From Apostichopus japonicus (lineage: Eukaryota; Echinodermata; Holothuroidea; Aspidochirotida; Stichopodidae), in NCBI RefSeq assembly GCF_037975245.1, contig NC_092572.1, forward strand, positions 9,006,001 to 9,070,000: a stretch of DNA of 64,000 nt, read 5' to 3'. The notes beneath the pieces are model-generated. The model saw only the letters and a program-made list of their open reading frames with translations. It had not been told where the DNA came from and made no database searches. Position numbers and translations under genes: made by a program. This document shows, piece after piece, positions 339-48,680 of the stretch (its first letter is position 1; every line of letters starts with the position of its first letter).

Positions 339-3300
339 GTGACAGACGACATCGTCGAAAACGTCAACGTGATCGTATTCAGGAAGATGAAACAGTTTGA
401 CCTGTCGGGAAATGTCGTCGTCGATAACGAATTTCTCTCGACCCTAAAGGTAGGTCCTGTGGAAGAACCGTACCCTAAGACCGTTTTGGCAGGTTTTATT
501 CTCATCCAAAATGTCACAAAATCATCCCATGGCTGTTTGTGGTGGACGTTGCCTCACCGCAAGACCAGTCGCCAATATCCAGCGTTCCTTTTGCGAGATC
601 ACTTGCGAAACACCAGCATATAATCATTTAGAATCTGTCACAACCCATTGAAGTACTTTAATAATCAACGCTTTATGCTTATTTGGTTTTTTTCACACTT
701 TCTCGATCTTGCCCCCTCCCCCACCATTTTTATGAGGGGGGAGGGGCTATCCTGCAATAATCTCTGTCTGAATTCCAAACCACATGATCAGTCGATGAAA
801 GAAAGGCTTAAAATATACATCATTATCTAAATAAGATCACGGCGGAAACAGAATTTGATGTGATACTAGATACCATTCAAACTGTCACAAATTAACCCAC
901 GCTTTAATTTAACCGGTTCTGTTTGCTACGTAAAATCTTCAGCCGACACTCTGGCTCAGACTGAGCTGACTGTCCTTTTCAAGTCTGGTAAAGATGGAAA
1001 AGTTGTTTAAAAGTTACCCTGATGACAAGATTCATTAAAATATTGAAACCCATTACTTGGAATTTTTCATATGTCTATGTCATTGTTATGACTGATGCAC
1101 TTCGATACGATTAAGCTACCAAGTTGAAGAGGACTTGAATTAACTGACAAAATCGAAAGCGGATCCGTGTCAGTCGTCCCTACCATATCGCCTCTGTACC
1201 TTACTTGAAAATTCACCCTTTACCCACGACAAGGAATGCTGCCCCCGTTTGTATGATCTGTAATACAACTTCAAGGAAACGGCACTTTAAAAAGCGGTTA
1301 ATCGAACAAATTAAGACAAAAATGTAAAGTCATTTCTAACATCCTCAAAAGAAGCAGTGGGATGTTGTGCCTTCTTCTATCCCCTTCTCAGCCCTAAATT
1401 GTTTATCAATATTTATGGGAAACAAAATGGAAAAAAACTAAAATACTGAACGTTCTCACTGTCATTAATCAGCAGTTGTCGTACTAAATTCCCATTCGTT
1501 TTTTTTCCTTCAAATTTCTTGCAGGTGAAACTTTTCCGGGAGGATAACCCAGACAATCCCGTCCACACAGTCTCACTAGGAAGTTCCAGTTTCTTTCACT
1601 TTCCATCCCTGACAAAGGATGACACGGTAAGACATCCAAAAGAGAAATAAACCTAGTTTTAATGCTGTAGCAAGACATTGCATCAATTCTGACACAGTAG
1701 TCACTAATAGGAGCAGGGATGTGCTCACACTGGGCGGCACCGGGCGGCTGAGCCCAGCAGTTCTGAATGCCGCCCAGCACAAACAGTATTTTAAACATTT
1801 CCGCCCGGCACTTTTTTGATGATAATTTAACAAATTTTACCATAACCAAAATCTGGGAGAATACATGGCACAGAATAGGAAAAATAGCACCACCTAAGCA
1901 TACTTCATGTGCAAAATTTGTCCAGTGGGGAGGGGGTACCCCACCCATGAGATCCCTCTCCCAGGGTGTGGATCACACTACCGCACAATCTGCCCGGCAC
2001 TCAAATATTCCTGAGCACATCCCTGTAGGAGGTTGTACTATGTGAAATGGAAAAAAAATATTGAAAGAGGACATTTCATGAATAAATACTATACAAATAA
2101 TTCCTGTGAGTTGTAAGATCTTTTATGATCTCGTTGGAGGGAGCGGGGGGGGTGGTAGGGAGACCGTAAGAAGAAACCTGTTTCAATGCTGTAGCGATAC
2201 ATTGCATCAATTCTGACAAAGTCAATTATAAGAGGTTGTACTATTTGAAATGGAAAAATTTGAAAGATGCTGCATGAATAAGCCTATGCAAGCAGTTCCT
2301 TTGAATGATAACATCTTTTATGATCTTGTTGGGTGGGGGGACCGACGGGGGTAAGGATATGTCCCAATGTGACAGAATGTGACAGACCTTACCGTAATGT
2401 GTGACTGCGCATAAAAAAACCTACCCCGGCATAAACTGTAATGTACAGTAATGAACGGAATAGTCGACACATCCGCCCTCGAATGCATCTGAGTAACTTT
2501 TTGATGGTAAATCGATGTTTTGTTTGAATTTTTTCGTCGGCGAGATCGTTTGAAACGGGCAAAAAATTTTGGAGTGAAAAAAAGTAGATAGTCACGATTT
2601 TGTGACTGTTGATGACAACAGGATAAGTACGTGAAAAAGAGGGATAGTTTAGACCGTCAAGATTGACTACGTGTTGAGGCTTTTAAGTGTATCCCATGTG
2701 ATCAGACACTGTAATTGAGAGTACTGAAAGAGGATATGTTAGTTCTGTGTCTTTATTATGGTCTCCCCTCTCCTTCCCAAATTGGTCACTTCCCCACCCT
2801 CTCCTTCCTCCCCTGCATGTCATCCCTGTAAAAGATGGCAGCATTTAGCCAAATAGCTGACCTCAAAAAATCAAAAACTTCAAATATTTTGCTGTTCACT
2901 GTCTGACCTTCATTCTGACCTATTTTACATCATTATTCATTATTTTCTAATAATGCCAGATTAAAATTTAAAAAGAATGGTCATGTTGACACATTTCCAA
3001 TTTTCTTAATATATTTTTCTATATCCATTTTGTCATCATTTTCAGAGGTATCGGATCCGTTTGGAATCGAGTTTGTCCAAGTCCACACATACGTACATTC
3101 TACCCGAGGCTTCCTTCAGCACGGCCGACGGCTACTACAAGCATATAACGTTACCTTTCACACCTGAGGTAAAGAAAACATAGACTCTCTTTCTCTCCTC
3201 CTTTTTCAAAAATCCAAAAGTAAGGTTTAGTAACTTTTATGGTCAACATGCAAATCATACAGGTCCCTTGGTAAGGGAAGGCTCGAAGATCTAAACAACC

Positions 3301-5377
3301 GTTGTTGACCCAACTAGACGTCCAGTTTCCTTTGAAGAACAAAACTGGAGCATTCAGCGAGTCACACTGGAACGCCCGCCGCCCAAAGGTTGCTAGTTAA
3401 TTGCCATCTCACTGACTATTCAATTACTAGTTCAATAACTTTAACATAACAAATTTAAGTCATTAGTGTCTGAGTCAATGGTTTTCCAAATATGCTCTAA
3501 TTGTTTTGTGTTGTGTTGTTTTCATTAATGGGTCAGGCCTCATCAGAGAGGATGATGTTTTCATCGCAACTAAACTGAAAATGGCTTTTGTTTTTTCTTC
3601 CAAAATTTTTCAATTATTTGTCCACGGAGAAAATAATACTGTCGCAAAACAGTTTACACTGCATGTCAAAAATGTCTTTGTTTTCCCTTAAATATCATAT
3701 TTCAATCATTTATTTTACAGAGGAAAAGAACAATTTCTCTACAAATAGAAGATGCACTTTCATGTTAATTAATAAAACTACAGAGAACATTGAGAGCTTG
3801 TAGTTAGCAAATATTCCAAATGTAAAAATTCACCGATAAATTTCAACAAAAAGTTTGTCATAGGAGAAAAAAAGCTTGTGAAGAGACCCAAACTTTGTGA
3901 CGTCAAAGACCACCTACGATGATCGACCTCCAGAAGTATCAGAGGGGGATATATAGCCTGTCCAAATAGGTGCCATTCAATCAACAGTATCTCCCATATG
4001 GAGTGTTGGCTCAGTGGTTAACGCCGGTGCCTTCCAATCATAAGGTCCCCAGTTCGAGTCACTCCAAGATTAATATATGTCATCCAGTTACAGAGTTGTT
4101 GACAATTCATAATCATGGACGTTAAATATGAATTTAAGAGACTGACTTCGGTCAGCTTGCGGCTTTGATAAGCCAATGAGGCTTCTTCGCGAGTTCTTGC
4201 TTGCAGGAGGATCTAAAATACATACATACATATCTCAAGTTAAGGACAAGGTATATCGAACTGAGATTTGCAGCCATCAGTGTGAGGAATATTTATCTCT
4301 TCAAGATAGTGTTATCTTGCCTGCTTCCGGAATATCCCAATTATTACTCCGTCGTTTGCCATTTGGAATATTCCATTATAGCTCTGCCTCATTGTCTGCT
4401 ACTGGAATATTCCATTATAGCTCTGCCTCGTTGTCTGCTACTGGAATATACCATTATAGCTCTGCCTCATTGTCTGCTACTGGAATATTCCATTATAGCT
4501 CTGCCTCATTGTCTGCTACTGGAATATAACATTATAGCTCTGCCTCATTGTCTGCTACTGGAATATTCCATTATAGCTCTGCCTTGTCAGTGCGTCAGAT
4601 TAAAATCACTGGTCTCCTTTGTTTTTGTTATTTCAGAGGAAGTCTGTTGAGCAGGAGATAGCCCAGGGATCTTATCTAGCGCTGCCTTTACTAGTGGCTT
4701 TTGTGATAGTTGTATTTAATCATAATAAGGTAAGTGGTTTTAATTTGCTGTCTGTTACCTCTAAGAGGTGAACCTCCCCTCTCACCTTCCTCTCACCCTC
4801 CTCTCCCCCTCCCCACACCTCTTTGAGATAATTTAGTCAATTGGAATGGTGCTTAGATACAAAATGGTTCTTTCTTTTGCAACTTTTGAAACAGTGTTGT
4901 AGAATTTTCGACTGGTTAGGTGGTATCGCACGCACATGTTGTATACTCGTGTATCCTACACAAGTTGCTATTCTGAAATATTCTGTCCGCCGGTGTTGGT
5001 GTTAAGGGTGGAAGGGGTAGATCCCCCTACCACCCCCCAAAGTATATATGGTTGCACCCCTACCCATAATCTGGTTTTTATGATAGTGTCAGATTGTGTG
5101 AGCTTCTTCACCATTGCTTGCTCTATTCCATAAGTGATGAGGTCGAATTAAAAAAGTACACCCATTGATTTTTCTTCTGTCACAGATTTTACCTCTAGTG
5201 CTACAGAAGATCCAACAGACAGTGAAGTCGACCACGGCGGCCGCCACCTCCTCCTACAGGCCATCAGCTCCCGCTCCCAGCAGCGCACCCGCCCCGCAGC
5301 CCCCCATAGATATGTCGGTCTTCGCTCCAGAGGATAGCCTCAAGCAGAAAAAGAAAGCTAAAGTCAGGAAAGCGTGA
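339..5377 (+). CDS. NOMO: NOMO (nodal modulator, BOS complex subunit), C-terminal part, 5 exons, 5'-partial
   Basis: Five phase-0 coding exons with GT-AG borders: 339-449, 1525-1626, 3046-3168, 4637-4729 and 5186-5377 (TGA stop), giving about 206 C-terminal residues. Vertebrate NOMO has about 1,220, so most of the gene lies upstream of base 1. Recognised by stretches typical of the NOMO C-terminus: HTVSLGSS..FHFPSL in exon 2, YILPEASF...GYYKHITL in exon 3, and EIAQGSYLALPL followed by the single membrane anchor (LLVAFVIVVF) in exon 4. The lumenal part belongs to the last of NOMO's Ig-like/carboxypeptidase-regulatory-like beta-sandwich repeats. The last exon gives a cytosolic tail with an Ala/Pro/Ser-rich linker (about residues 160-190 of the fragment) and a Lys-rich end (KQKKKAKVRKA). 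NOMO acts in the ER membrane with TMEM147 and nicalin as the BOS complex of the multipass translocon. The tail is less conserved than the rest, as expected. No break is seen. Confidence 0.96.
450..1524 (+). other. NOMO intron (between exons 1 and 2 of the visible part)
   Basis: Flanked by donor GTAGGT after 449 and acceptor TTGCAG before 1525. I see no gene, clear repeat or structured element inside. Confidence 0.8.
1640..2354. repeat. Tandem duplication in NOMO intron, first copy interrupted by a MITE
   Basis: Copy A (about 1640-2169 including the insertion) and copy B (about 2170-2354) share AATGCTGTAGC, CATTGCATCAATTCTGAC, GGTTGTACTAT, TGAAATGGAAAAA, the phrase around TCTTTTATGATCT and a G-rich end. 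Copy B lacks the 312-bp insertion found in copy A. Confidence 0.8.
1714..2025. mobile_element. 312-bp MITE with TIRs and 6-bp target duplication TAGGAG
   Basis: Starts CAGGGATGTGCTCA and ends TGAGCACATCCCTG, a 14-bp perfect terminal inverted repeat. TAGGAG directly precedes (1708-1713) and follows (2026-2031) the element. The adjacent duplicated copy carries the empty site (TAAGAG once, followed by GTTGTACTAT). Inner sequence is rich in GCCCGGC/GGGCGGC, also in inverted copies near both ends. It has no transposase ORF, so it is non-autonomous. Superfamily uncertain: the CAGGG termini recall hAT, but hAT normally makes 8-bp duplications. Confidence 0.88.
4000..4233 (+). mobile_element. tRNA-derived SINE
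   Basis: The head resembles a tRNA gene: GGAGTG...CACTCC can pair as an acceptor stem, GGCTCAGTGGTTAA is a pol III A box and CAGTTCGAGTC a B box. The tRNA-unrelated body runs through GACTGACTTCGGTCAGC and CTTCTTCGCGAG, and the element ends in a short (ATAC)n tail near 4215-4233. The anticodon loop is not a good functional loop, so this is a SINE head and not a tRNA gene. It lies in a NOMO intron, in sense orientation. Confidence 0.82.
4326..4588 (+). repeat. 39-bp minisatellite, about 6.5 units
   Basis: Units begin with GGAATATTCCATTATAGC at 4365, 4404, 4443, 4482, 4521 and 4560, exactly 39 bp apart, with a degenerate unit near 4328. Each contains CTCTGCCTC and TTGTCTGCTACT. The array ends about 48 bp before the NOMO exon at 4637. 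Because 39 is divisible by 3 it reads as an ORF, but it is intronic. Confidence 0.95.
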
Positions 5378-19801: not shown

Positions 19802-19870
19802 AACGTGTAAAAGTAAGTTGGCCTGACGTTTCGATCTTAGCAGAATCTTCTTCAAAGGCTAAAAATTGGA
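19802..19870 (-). ncRNA. Hammerhead-like terminal motif, copy 1
   Basis: On the minus strand: GCCT, TTGAAGA, A, a stem with loop TGCTA, GATC, GAAAC, GTC, AGGC. The GCCT/AGGC stem is intact. The core has T for the first C of CUGANGA and the stem II pairing is weakened, so self-cleavage is unlikely for this copy. Flanked by TAAAAGTAAGTTGGCCTGACG as in other copies. Confidence 0.5.
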
Positions 19871-42490: not shown

Positions 42491-43504
42491 TCTCTTGAGT
42501 TATAACGATTGGATGCAATAAATGGCTCTTGAAAATATCACGAATCGATCCGTCCATTAGAGATTGGAATTACTAAATGTAACGCCCGCAGCTTTTCGTT
42601 CTTTAGCCACTCTGCGAGCTGTCAAAAGGCCAAAAATGCCCCACAAGGTTCACGGGTTGCCAATGTTGACCAACCCTATACTCGTTGTGTTGGATATTGG
42701 GACTGTGCAATCGAGGGGGGGGGAGGGAGGGGTTGGGGGGGTTGTTAGATTGTTGGGGCGAAAATATCCCTGCATGGCCAACCCTCTTAAATGAAAGACT
42801 TTTATCGTCGTTTTGGATAACATTTTAGTGAAGACGAGAGAGTAGCGGTATATTGTTTCAAAGCAAAAGTGAAACTTTGTGGGTAGTGTAAATATGAGAA
42901 ATCTGAACTCAACTCAGCTAAATATTCAATCGAAAATATGTCAGATTGATAAGGTTAAATCATGAATTGAAACGAAACAGCTGTATTAATATGATAGTCC
43001 GGGAGAAAATGTTTTGAGAAGTTTTTGACTGATAAAAGAGACTTCTATGGATCCTATAGTGAAGTTAGCAATCTACAGTACTCCAATGTAGCGTTTTTGG
43101 AGATAACAAACATTAAAGTTGACACAGTTTTGTACTAATAGTGAAGCACGAGACAACCAGGTGTGACGTCATACCGTATATACACAGTGACCAATTTCAT
43201 ATGTTGTTTTCTTAGAAAAAAAAATTAAAAATCCAATTTTATGATTCAAACTTGGAATCATCATCTCAACATGAACACATTAACTTTATTTAAACCAAAC
43301 CCTGTATTGGACCTAGATCCAATTCAATGACAAAATGAAATTCAAGAAAAAGTGAATAAAGGCAGAAAATAACTTTGCTTGTATTTTCCCCATTTTCTCT
43401 TTTATACGTGTTTTACGTTGATTCTATTTGCCGTTAAACGTACGTAAGAGCCAACACATTAATAGCATAGCCAGGCTTAGGTATTTCAGAGAGGAAACGC
43501 AGAA

Positions 43505-43608
43505 GCGATATATGAGAGAGAGGTGGGAGAGGTGGGAAAGGTGGGTGGAGAGGTGGAGAGAGGTGTGGAGAGAGGTGGAGAGAGAGGTGGAGAGAGGTGG
43601 AGGATCAG
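43505..43608. repeat. GAGAGGTGG purine-rich tandem repeat
   Basis: Irregular repeats of GAGAGGTGGAGA over about 100 bp, strictly R-rich with T every sixth to twelfth base. The apparent ORF through it (REVEREVER) is low-complexity. Confidence 0.88.
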
Positions 43609-44957
43609 AGCGGCTGGTCGAAGGGTCAAAAGAGTGAAGGAAGAGATTTATCAACTTCGGCGAGGGGACGGAAAAAAGGTTATTTTAGCCTACTGCAGGA
43701 AAAACATTTAACGAACAAACACGTATAAATGCTTGCATATCGCACGTTTAACAGCGCCGTACAGGCAGGCCTATAGACACGTTTTTTACACGAGCTCATC
43801 GCATGTATAGACAACATTTGGTACTTGAAGGACAACCACAGAATTTCTATTACATGGAGCACAACAAAGCTCGATCGAATCCTGCTAAGTAGCGTGCACA
43901 TATTGATTATTGTGTCGATCTTCGCAATACTTATAGCATACCGCGCATTTATCTGCTACAGCAGTGTATAGGCCTATATGGGGCTATATCTGAATCTGTA
44001 ATTATACTAACAATGAAAGGACGCGCTGTACGCGTCTTGATCCAATCGACAATGCCTTAGTAACGGCAAACCATGACAATGGCGCCAATTTAGTACTTCT
44101 TGGTGTATGTAGCAACTCTCGTAATATATGCTAAGAGTGAAAGATGAGGGAATCTACAGTTTTCATATTTCTGAGTTTATATGCTAACAAATATGATGCC
44201 AGACAACATATTTTCTACGTACTTTATTGTTTCCGTAACTATATAGTTTCTCAACGTCAATGTGCTTTTCTTTGTGTTATCGGTCTTTACTATCCCTATT
44301 TTAACTGCTATCGGCTCTCAATGGAACTTCAGAAAAGGGAGAGCTATGACGTCACGCAAAATCCGGCATCCAATATTGTTAGATTCCTCTGAGACGACAT
44401 GACATTTATCAGCTGCAGTTACTAGAATTTCCTACTATTTGGTGGTTACAGTATTGCCACGGTTAGAGATAACACCGGTTACTGAAAACATATAGTTTGT
44501 TAATTCGGTTTGGTTATATACATTTGCCTAAATGTCAAAGGTTGGCTAGAGAAGCAAGTCGCAATTACACTCAATTTGTGGGACACAAACTGCTCTATAT
44601 AATGAAATGACATCCAATAGTGTGGAATAGTAAACATGGCTGCCTTCTTTGTGTAGTTATTTTATATATTATCGCTATTTATGAAATACCACAGATTGAC
44701 ACACAATTTTAATAATACGTACCGGCAAGGATATTGCTATATATAATAAACATATTATGTAGGTCACAGAACTTCAATTCGTTTCCATATTTCTATATCA
44801 CAAAATGTGGACAGGATCATAGGCTTTGGTCCTGCTTAAAGGTTAGCAGTATTTCATCAGTATTTAACATACTAGAATTGCTAAAAGGTTTTAATATTCT
44901 GACATTATAAAAGCAAATATTTCCTGGCATTCCAAAGTGTTAAATTAGACAATAAAA

Positions 44958-45435
44958 ATTCGACGTGTAAAAGTAAGAGGGCCTGACGTTTCGATCCTAG
45001 CAGAATACAAAAGAGATAGAATGTAAGAATATTAGTAGAGAGGTATAGAGATAAACTGTCGAGGGACAACGAGAGGATTAATAGGAAGAGGGTAGGGAGT
45101 AAAATAAGGAAAGACAAAGACAGAAAAGTGTGGAGAAAAAAAGGTTGAAGAGAGCTACGAGAAGAGGGGTGACAGGGCAGGGGGTGGGGGAGCAGAGGAG
45201 AGGTTGATCATTAATGTTGAGTCCATGAGGTTGAATGGTGCAAAGGTGTTGTATCCACAGTCTCTCTGCTGATTATATCTACTAATATATACATCTTCTT
45301 TGTGTTCACCATGCTCATTAACCTATCTGTATTCTGTGTGTGTATTTGTCCCTTCTGTTACTGTAACTTGTCATTCAGCCTCTGAAGAAGATCCTGCTAG
45401 GATCGAAACGTCAGGCCCCTCTTACAGAACTTTTA
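44958..45435. mobile_element. Non-autonomous element flanked by inverted hammerhead-like ends (Penelope-like candidate)
   Basis: The left end GTAAAAGTAAGAGGGCCTGACG...ATCCTAGCAGAA and the right end TGCTAGGATCGAAACGTC plus AGGCCCCTCTTACAGAAC are inverted relative to each other. The roughly 380 bp between are non-coding, GA-rich in the left half. No reverse transcriptase is seen. It could be a truncated head-to-head pair of insertions and not one element. Confidence 0.55.
45378..45416 (+). ncRNA. Hammerhead-ribozyme-like motif, stem-III-less, best copy
   Basis: Order on the + strand: GCCT (stem I 5'), CTGAAGA (fits CUGANGA), one extra A, GATCC-TGCTA-GGATC (perfect 5-bp stem II), GAAA, C-G-T with no stem III loop, C (cleavage position), AGGC (stem I 3', pairs with GCCT). 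Stem-III-less hammerheads associated with Penelope-like elements have been described as working as dimers. The extra A between the core and stem II departs from the textbook core, so activity is uncertain. Confidence 0.6.
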
Positions 45436-46124
45436 CGCATTCTCTTACACAGGCTGTTAAGTGGATAAGCAGTTTGCTCAAAGTTTGTTTTCATGGAAGG
45501 AACGAATTCTTTTTCTTTTGAGGCGGAATTAAAACAACTTTATTTTGGACCATACCATTCGATAGTAGGTTGGCGTCGAGTTTAACAATGGTAAAAGGTC
45601 GGGATAGGTTATGGCTTAATAACAAAAACTTATATAAATTCACTAAATTAAAATAGGTTAGGGATGTGAAGTGTCGTTCTCAATATACTTTGGGCAACGA
45701 CACAACAACGACTGTTTTTGATTCTACACAAATACAAAACACCCCTCTCTTATAGTGGAATATACGGTCCGGCGACGAATGGGGACATGATCCAAAGAAC
45801 GTCCTCCTTCAATACATGCTGGCCTATTTTTCGGGCTAATGCTAATAACCCAAACCACCAAAAGGCCGTCTGGGCCTTCAAAAGAGCTTTTGTTATGTCA
45901 ATTATAAGAGCATGGTTTTAAATCTTGTTGCCTTGGACTAAGCTGACATTTTCTTTTATTGAACTCGCTTATACAAAATAAGCTGGCTTATGCATGCAGG
46001 GTTCAAGAACACCTTCTATCAATTACAATAAAGATCAAACGACTGTGCCTCTATTGTATACTATATTGATTATTTATTAGTAGGGCCCTACCAAGCAGAG
46101 ATAATTCTCATGTCCGTTGTATTC

Positions 46125-46335
46125 ATTGCACTTGATGGTACATATAGTACAGTATGTGTGTACGGGGCCCGTGTCATTCCGCCATCTGTACATTCCGCCA
46201 TAGAAAATGTGCTCTTTCCGCAATAGAAAAACTGTGTGAACTCGTGTATGCGGAAAGGTATGGCTATATGTACCTATGGCGGAATGGCACTGGAACCCTT
46301 GTGTGTGTATGCACGTACAAGCTACAGTAGAGTGA
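46125..46335. mobile_element. MITE-like imperfect inverted repeat (CATTCCGCCAT arms)
   Basis: Arms of about 40 bp: TGTGTGTACGG...CATTCCGCCATCTGTACAT on the left and its diverged inverse ATGTACCTATGGCGGAATGGCAC...TGTGTGTATGCACG on the right. A second TTCCGCCATAG and TTCCGCAATAG lie inside. No coding capacity. Confidence 0.6.
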
Positions 46336-47108
46336 CTTTGAAGAATAAAACCCGAATTAGCTTTTTTTGTTGTGCCGAAAACGAATTTAATGAACAGGAG
46401 AGGAAGGTGTACACTCGAGATATGTTTTTTAATTTTCAATAGTTCGGACACTGCATGATTTTGCGACGTAGTAACCACTTTCGTTTAGAAGGAGGGGGTG
46501 GTGAGGAGTACACGGGAGAAAGATGTCATAACACTGAAAAGCACATTTTCTCTTAAACCGAAATCAAACTTAAATTGAGTCGCTCAAGCAGTGTACGTGG
46601 TACCTTTTTAGGAGGCGGGGAGCAGGCTAGTACAAACATTAAAATAAGACCAAACAATTCCCTACTAAAATTAAAACTCCTCCTGCCCCCTCCTCTTCCC
46701 CCTCCCCCTCCAGCCCGCCCTCATTCAAATGACAATATATATATATATATGCAGTTACCCAACATGATCATCTTGACCGAATTAAGTTCTAGTCCGAAAA
46801 CAATGGAAATATCCGTAACGATTCCTTAAATTAAAAATTAAATTAATGCGTGATGTCCGAAATATCTTGACCCATGACTTTCGGAAGGCCTGTTGGTCCT
46901 CCTAACGTTTGCTTCAACACTTTAAGTATAAGCTGTAAAGCTTAATAGTATCATACATTTTAAAAACAAACAATCCCAGAATTCTATAGATAATCGTATC
47001 TCAACTATATTAAAAGCTGAAGCAATTGGTTGAACTTTTTTTTCCGAAAAGGAAACATTATAGGCTACACGTTTACTTTGGTTATCATGCTAAGAATGTA
47101 CCAAAATC

Positions 47109-47405
47109 AGGCACGTTGCCATGAACGGAGGGGGCACGGATTGCCCCCCCCCTCCAAAAAAACAGATCGTTACTTTTCAAAATTCATAGCTCAAAAAAGA
47201 GGTAAAGTTATACACCAACAGAAAAATGGAATAAAATTGGAGGGAAAAGATGGCATAATTTGGCATCGAAGCCCCCATGAGGTAAGCAAAAAGTTGACAC
47301 CCACTACCCTTAGAACCCTCTCTCAGGATGGCGATCCTCCTGCATTGATGTGCCCACCCCCCCCCAAAAAAAAAAAAGTCTGCTACTCTGGCTATGGGCT
47401 TGACC
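47109..47405 (-). mobile_element. hAT-like MITE (family C), minus-strand diverged copy
   Basis: Its inverse shows GATCGCCATCCTGAGAGAGGG, TTCTAAGGGTAGTGG, CAACTTTTTGCTT and CCAAATTATGCCAT in the order seen at 38690-38790. Poly-C tracts lie near both ends as in the other copies. TIRs are degraded (GCACGTTGCCATGAAC against CCATAGCCAGAGTAGC), so the ends are approximate. Confidence 0.65.
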
Positions 47406-47467
47406 AAGAGAGAAGCAAGTGTTAGCAAACTGCTTATCTACTACAAAAACCGGTGTAGGTATAAATG

Positions 47468-47520
47468 ATGTAAAAGTGCATTAGAGGGCCTGATGTTTTG
47501 ATCCAAACAGAATCTTCCTT
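47468..47520 (-). repeat. Hammerhead-like terminal motif, degenerate copy
   Basis: TAAAAGTGCATTAGAGGGCCTGATG-TTTTGATCC-AAACAGAATCTTCCTT retains the layout, but several core bases are changed. It directly precedes the 19-bp array. Confidence 0.5.
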
Positions 47521-47524
47521 ATGC

Positions 47525-47838
47525 ACGAAATTGAAACTTATGTACGAAATTGAACTTATGTACGAAATTGAAAGATATGTAAGAAATTGAAACTTAAGTA
47601 CGAAATTGAAAATTATGTACGAAATTGAAAATTATGTAAGCAATTGAAACTTATGTACGAAATTGAAACTTATTTACGAAATTGAAACTTATGTAAGCAA
47701 TTATATCTTATGTACGAAATTGAAACTTTTATACGAAATTGAAACTTATGTACGAAATTGAAACTTATTTACGAAATCGAAAGATATGTAAGAAATTGAA
47801 ACTAATGTAAGAAATTGAATCTTATGTACGAAATTGAA
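47525..47838. repeat. 19-bp minisatellite ACGAAATTGAAACTTATGT, about 16 units
   Basis: Units repeat with changes such as AAGATATGTAAG, CTTATTTACG and AAGCAATT. A 15-bp unit also appears near 47545-47562. The array abuts a degraded hammerhead-like end. Confidence 0.95.
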
Positions 47839-48611
47839 GTTACTTACAAACACTTCATCTAAATGTAATGAACATGTTCAATTGTTATAAGAAGCATTAT
47901 CGAGCAAGGTAAAGACTTACTTACATATAGTTGTGCAAGAAGCATCATTCAGATAACGTCCTCCTCTCTCATCTTGATTTACTTCTGATAAAAATGTCAT
48001 CAATAAAAAACACTAAATATTGCCCCTATATCCTTCCGAATATTTCCTATATATTGGTCAATATGAAGTCCAGGCTTTCTACATCCGTATTCCTCGAAAC
48101 GAAAGCTTATTTGATTTACAAACAAGTGGCACGGTTAACTTCTTAACTCTAAATGTTTAATTCCAAACGTTTTTGAACAGACTGAAGTGTTGACGTAAAT
48201 TATTGAACTTTCGCGTTCCACAGGGGGTGTCCCGCCATAGCAACAGGATTTGTTGATATTGATAGTAGCACTGTGTAGGATTATAGACTGCAAAAAGCTG
48301 AGTCAAAACACCGTCCCTTTGATCCTTGGGCCAAACTTTCGACCGTACGTAGCAAAGTCTCAGTAATTGAACAACACAATGACAGTCTCAGAGCGTAATA
48401 GCCGGAGAAAAATCGATAATTGTTTAACTATTGGTGGACGAAAGAATAGGGCCAATGCGCTTTGTATATAGTCGGGATTTAATCATACGTTCCTATTAAA
48501 GAGAAGGATACAATGGTGGTCTGTAATGAGTGTTTGCACTAATGAAAAAAGAAACATTCATCTAATGGATCTATATTTGAAAGACTGTCTTCAACATTCG
48601 CTGTTCTATAT

Positions 48612-48680
48612 AATAATGTGTAAAAGTAAGTTGGCCTGACGTTTCGATCCTAGCATGATCTTCTTCAAAGGCTAAAATAA
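48612..48680 (-). ncRNA. Hammerhead-like terminal motif, copy 5
   Basis: On the minus strand: GCCT, TTGAAGA, A, GATCATGCTAGGATC, GAAAC, GTC, AGGC, then CAACTTACTTTTACAC. Same T-for-C core change as at 19802-19870; stem I intact. Confidence 0.5.

Follow-up and report, generated by a model that had tools for sequence, protein, structure and literature searches.

A minimal hammerhead-type motif in a sea cucumber Penelope-like element

The window analyzed here, a stretch of 64,000 nucleotides from the sea cucumber Apostichopus japonicus (NC_092572.1, positions 9,006,001 to 9,070,000), carries GCCTCTGAAGAAGATCCTGCTAGGATCGAAACGTCAGGC at 45378-45416 on the plus strand, which is very probably a minimal, stem-III-less hammerhead-type motif that lies in the pseudo-long terminal repeat (pLTR) of a Penelope-like element (PLE) and acts as proposed below. 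Its descent from PLE hammerheads seems almost certain, and we lean towards the view that it can cut RNA, if only as a dimer or when helped by a protein. The letters run GCCT CTGAAGA A GATCC TGCTA GGATC GAAA CGT C AGGC, which confirms letter for letter a preliminary description, made from this DNA alone, that had read the landmarks of a hammerhead in this order. The parts of the hammerhead-type motif are as follows:

45378-45381 with 45413-45416 (+), stem I (GCCT/AGGC)
45382-45388 (+), core CTGAAGA
45389 (+), extra A between A9 and stem II
45390-45394 with 45400-45404 (+), stem II (GATCC/GGATC)
45405-45408 (+), GAAA
45408-45411 (+), ACGT palindrome (the stem III letters)
45412 (+), H17, a C, with the predicted cut between 45412 and 45413

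A descriptor composed of CTGANGA, zero or one extra base, stem II of at least 4 bp, GAAA, two to eight bases with T before H17, and stem I of at least 4 bp matched the window once when both strands were searched, at 45378-45416, and matched none of 150 simulated windows (first-order Markov). The lowest-energy fold of the 39-mer consists of exactly stems I and II, the two stems that the preliminary description had paired by inspection. The core CTGANGA and GAAA is present with both stems, as in minimal PLE hammerheads, and a palindrome stands in the place of the missing stem III, which is a further feature of that group.

Linkage to a reverse transcriptase frame

The 671.6-Mb assembly (35 contigs) was searched with the pattern CTGAAGAN{6,30}GAAACGTC, which gave 1,813 matches (897 + 916) against 57 for a reversed-pattern control. 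All of the first 20 loci except L040 are members of the motif family; these 19 share common flanks with staggered 5' starts. Two of the loci, L045 and L047, extend upstream into the end of a coding region, which in L047 reads ERLWMQRLRTIQPHGLNIQEGHD followed by a stop; the sequence upstream of both contains neither reverse transcriptase (RT) nor GIY-YIG, and matched only Reeler (E 2e-4) and, weakly, Catalase-rel. A 531-bp query from L047, for which 40 of 2,860 candidates were scored, returned 42 matches, 40 of them at 98-100% identity over more than 500 bp, and these matches included three tandem pairs with a spacing of ~3.25 kb.

At one such locus, L111, motifs are located at 581 and 3832, 3,251 bp apart, and enclose a frame of 953 aa from stop to stop (655-3513) that matches RVT_1 above the cut-off (E 2.8e-9) and also matches GIY-YIG, with a score taken up below. 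The combination of RT and GIY-YIG in a single frame is a feature of GIY-YIG-type PLEs. The frame has direct repeats on either side, 693 bp or longer and 99.7% identical, in the manner of the direct pLTRs of tandem PLE units, and the motif is placed within the pLTR. The frame found nothing in PDB by sequence and nothing in NCBIfam. Judged by its sequence, the element is a PLE, and the link to RT-bearing elements foreseen in the preliminary description holds, two copies of the motif enclosing a frame that has both RVT_1 and GIY-YIG.

We compared 27 sequences with L111, of which 26 could be aligned (L040 could not). Counted from CTGAAGA, the 3' ends of the aligned copies fall at +49 to +55 in 16 and at +106 to +112 in eight, the remaining two being L038 at +60 and L043 at +32. 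Close neighbors (<1 kb), sought by eye among the first 100 places listed for copies with C at core position 3 (C3) and the first 100 for copies with U there (U3), form six pairs, four head-to-head, one tail-to-tail, and one direct. Two alternative 3' ends and head-to-head copies are both features of GIY-YIG-type PLEs. Flanks resembling target-site duplications of ~10-13 bp were seen by eye at three loci (L034, L035, and L047).

Retrozymes carry the same class of ribozyme, and PLEs have been proposed as their helpers (PMC7761336; this and the other cited papers are represented here by excerpts). A canonical retrozyme, in which short tandem units without autonomy yield RNA that is cut and then circularized, is a very improbable explanation of the copies, since the copies are dispersed, 5'-truncated PLE ends rather than tandem repeats of 150-450 bp and have no stem III, which is not the makeup of a retrozyme.

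Families with the same fold and their covariation

A search of the genome for GIY-YIG gave 37 matches, with 150 of 626 candidates scored, and 30 of these loci were scanned for the motif. A hammerhead-like motif lies 3' of the GIY-YIG match at 25 of the 30, belonging to family B at 20, to family C at three, and to the window family in its U3 form at two:

L053, L056-L058, L060-L069, L072-L076, L078, family B, downstream of GIY-YIG
L052, L079, L054, family C
L055, L059, window family, U3 form

Family B, GCTCACTTTGTTAAAGGGTTTATACCCGAAACGTCGTG, retains the hairpin and GAAACGTC and has a non-canonical 5' core (TTGTTAAA, not CTGANGAA), in which U would occupy position 3 and A position 8, so that pairing is still possible. 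A motif of a further family, D, is found in L068 on the strand opposite to the GIY-YIG match of that locus; genome-wide, at up to three mismatches, family D gave 42 matches and its control gave 0.

Two alignments were analyzed, with family B left outside both because its core does not fit. In the first, comprising 16 motif sequences (13 from the window family and three from families C and D), 93.8% of cells pair and 14 double-change cells occur in seven pairs; none of 500 shuffles reached any of the five measures, nor did any slid version of the alignment. In the second, comprising seven sequences with one to three per family, 94% of cells pair, 22 double-change cells compare with 7.4 in shuffles (0/500), and the covariation score is 0.73 against 0.23 (0/500). 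These cells count sequences, not events, and come from three independent families. Between families, all four pairs of stem I change on both sides, as does stem II, and the inner pair of stem III is C-G, G-C, or A-U, giving ACGT, AGCT, or AATT, each self-complementary, as pairing between two motifs would predict; the preliminary description had pointed to this property for ACGT, and it extends to the other families. L068, the family D sequence, was chosen by a scan in which T at 16.1 and both stems were required, and the family C sequences by one that demanded the hairpin, GAAA, and T at 16.1; independent of this choice are stem I of family C and, for families C and D, the inner pair of stem III.

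All seven aligned family representatives have the extra A, as do 85 of 86 window-family copies of one length. It had been taken as the main departure from a hammerhead; its presence in seven of seven representatives marks it instead as a family trait and not a defect.

That the motif is a chance string is scarcely credible. Its folding energy is ordinary (z -1.5, with 14 of 200 shuffles folding equally well), and the string without stems does arise by chance in viral contigs: a close pattern of the motif had 0 matches there, and a looser one matched 26 of them, none with a stem II of at least 4 bp. In such foreign DNA the motif string alone is chance. Prokaryote contigs gave two matches to the string, both bacterial, with stems unscored. 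Here, copy number and linkage refute that explanation, with 0 of 150 simulations set against 1,813 genomic matches, the RT frame, and the covariation.

Proposed action of the motif and evidence that weighs against it

From the sequence, the compatible stems, the covariation between families, the tandem arrangement, the RT and GIY-YIG frame, and the recent amplification, all of which are observed, we infer pairing in trans, cutting, and a role in the life cycle of the element. Each 3.25-kb unit has one motif, and a tandem read-through transcript would therefore carry two. These two could pair through the self-complementary ACGT, which would supply the missing stem III as four base pairs common to both cores, and each paired motif would then cut after C17, which would free a unit-length RNA or trim the start of an mRNA.

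A number of observations weigh against this account. Rfam 15 reported no hammerhead at gathering level in the whole window, and none at E up to 10 in 1.4 kb and in 101 bases. The canonical core has stem II joined directly to A9 and contains no extra A, which here separates the two at 45389. The GIY-YIG match in the L111 frame (E 3.3e-4, 21.3 bits) is below the Pfam cut-off of 22.6, no motif was found at five of the 30 GIY-YIG loci scanned (L051, L070, L071, L077, and L080), and family B, the commonest at these loci, is without the canonical 5' core. In the seven-sequence alignment, the numbers of changed pairs (45/500 shuffles) and of pair types (154/500) are not decisive. The 86 window-family copies, a listing conditioned on an intact core, contain no double-sided change that keeps a standard pair. 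The compensatory changes that the preliminary description had looked for across genomic copies can thus be seen between families, in both stems and in the palindrome of stem III, and are absent within this one.

Insertions copied from cut RNA were sought as copies that keep the 3' flank and have a base other than T at the position ten bases before it; 191 were found and 100 listed. Among those 100, divergence begins exactly at the predicted cut in 11, and in five of these the upstream letters are, by eye, unrelated to the element. Five unrelated starts, compared with 1,811 full-motif copies, indicate that starts at the predicted cut are rare, which also counts against the proposal.

The same holds for the change of core C3 to U in 758 copies. 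With the rest of the motif intact, the genome holds 1,053 C3 and 758 U3 copies and only 19 with G5A, the core transition used for comparison, so U3 is an amplified subfamily and not scattered decay. An alternative is that the motif, a hammerhead by descent, need no longer cut, and that its fold is kept for recognition by reverse transcriptase, for arrest of that enzyme, or for self-priming, with ACGT serving the making of inverted copies. We regard this as possible and on the whole unlikely. In the PAc element, the hammerhead is killed by changes at C3 and G8 that are of another kind than U3 (C3G and G8C), hammerhead mutants left insertion in vitro unaffected, and no reads started or ended at the hammerhead cut (excerpts of PMC11167929). 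The hairpin and GAAACGTC kept by family B in the absence of the 5' core agree with the alternative, as does the position of the 5' ends. Of the 26 aligned copies, nine begin between 14 and 4 bases upstream of CTGAAGA, immediately 5' of stem I (48615-48676 (-), 19802-19863 (-), L032, L036, L037, L038, L039, L042, and L046, with L036 and L037 being one duplicated locus), and are mini-copies, hardly more than motif and tail. This pattern, together with the fusions described next, could reflect either initiation near TTGTCATTTAG or a reverse transcriptase that is arrested by the folded motif. Head-to-head fusions at ACGT, giving GGCCTGACGTCAGGCC or nearly so, were found at five loci among the 100 listed and suggest that the stem III letters allow self-priming or template switching:

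C1:102421, C1:5832942, C6:1342395, C7:3762633, C8:15886568, ACGT head-to-head fusion loci (contig:position)

Against a loss of cutting, families A, C, and D all have CTGANGA and GAAA despite their different stems, as a ribozyme would require, and in U3 copies a G-U pair with G8 may persist and leave them partly active. A narrower form, in which the motif serves reverse transcription without cutting (by recognition, arrest, or ACGT self-priming) in the U3 subfamily and family B at least, is doubtful; if it is true, the amplified U3 subfamily is a natural ribozyme knock-out that still transposes.

We retain the interpretation as a hammerhead-type motif that may cut when paired. On sequence evidence, the hammerhead-like interpretation in the preliminary description is supported: two of the matters on which it was to stand or fall, compensatory changes and association with RT-bearing elements, were examined, and neither refutes it. 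The genome offers a natural comparison: one element is present in both C3 and U3 copies, the stem letters vary among several families, and the ends of well over a thousand insertions show which template was copied, so that the need of cutting for transposition becomes directly testable.

Other copies and neighboring features

Besides the copy at 45289-45494, four more copies or fragments of the motif family lie within the window:

45289-45494 (+), 5'-truncated Penelope-like element end holding the motif; 206 bp, 87% identity to the L111 pLTR, 3' end of the long type
44965-45273 (-), second truncated copy of the element family, in pieces 45273-45038 and 45006-44965; motif without its 5' half
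47417-47517 (-), decayed copy, 76% identity, core letters gone (AAAACATC)
48615-48676 (-), 62-bp copy, motif and short 3' tail; core C3 to T, U3 subfamily
19802-19863 (-), 62-bp copy of the U3 subfamily (C3 to T in the core) with a weakened stem II; motif and short 3' tail

The copy at 45289-45494 is a truncated remnant with an intact core. It stands head-to-head with the copy at 44965-45273, across a gap of 15 bp, and the latter retains terminal residues of the open reading frame at 45272-45207 (22 aa at 73%, E 3e-5, by tblastn with the L111 frame). These 22 residues, on the minus strand, are the only remains of PLE coding sequence near the window motif; six-frame Pfam analysis of 43101-48003 found 0 families and no PLE protein beside it. 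A 19-bp tandem array of 16.9 copies (47518-47838) adjoins the decayed copy. Sub-threshold Rfam matches to CRISPR-DR7, CRISPR-DR9, RNaseP_nuc, and SNORA20 were regarded as chance, and Rolling-stone and EamA domains, found among the six window frames scanned, mark the window as animal DNA.

Outside the window, the duplicated locus L036/L037 is ~88% alike across some 2.3 kb, with one motif insertion in common and a Hint domain in L036. Family D, which has the AATT stem III, is concentrated near contig ends, with 30 of its 42 matches within 1.3 Mb of an end (on C4, C11, C14, C17, C19, C20, and C21) and 29 of these 30 pointing towards it; 11 pairs are spaced 2.1-2.8 kb. This distribution could reflect a telomere-linked PLE or subtelomeric duplication. 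Broken frames in the family D unit L116 show what we take to be a likeness to PLE RT and GIY-YIG (VIYKATV, YIGLASGEFKKRY); Pfam found no family in L116.

Comparison with known systems

For Penelope-like elements, minimal type I hammerheads were reportedly described by Cervera and de la Pena in 2014 and by Lunse, Weinberg, and Breaker in 2017. Further accounts of minimal PLE hammerheads are found in excerpts of PMC7761336, PMC6155905, and PMC6466107. All available PLE sequences are said to bear such hammerheads, usually without helix III; thousands of the minimal type I are dispersed in metazoan genomes and may cut as dimers (PMC6155905, PMC7761336), and their role in PLEs is called unknown (PMC7761336). 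The motif described here resembles them in its CTGANGA and GAAA core, stems I and II, the lack of helix III, a palindrome usable between two molecules, its location in the pLTR of a PLE, and the dispersal of its copies. It differs in the additional A that separates A9 from stem II in the families seen here, a feature for which the literature was not searched. Repeats of the form CTGAAGAAG...CGAAACGTC occur in fish. A literature search combining hammerhead ribozyme, echinoderm, and Penelope found no paper.

Published accounts of PLEs describe tandem units, direct pLTRs, a tail that is optional, and copies inverted head-to-head (PMC3846280, PMC11167929). A close parallel is PAc (Poseidon) of Anolis carolinensis, which likewise is a PLE with RT and GIY-YIG, has tandem units with a pLTR and a hammerhead of stems I and II, and uses two alternative 3' starts of reverse transcription; in contrast to PAc, the motif here ends ahead of the frame (motif at 581 and frame from 655 in L111) (PMC11167929). 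Penelope elements of Adineta vaga share direct and inverted pLTRs, head-to-head junctions that are often at palindromes, and an optional tail, and they have target-site duplications, which the flanks seen by eye at three loci here resemble; hammerheads are unmentioned in the excerpted account of them (PMC3846280), whereas some head-to-head junctions here fall at the ACGT of the motif. Animal retrozymes also have type I hammerheads with a weak stem III, some active as dimers, but are short, tandem, non-coding repeats with canonical hammerheads (PMC7229834), unlike the element described here. PLE hammerheads without helix III have already been described, as the preliminary description had stated (PMC7761336, PMC6155905), and the sea cucumber motif adds a further example.
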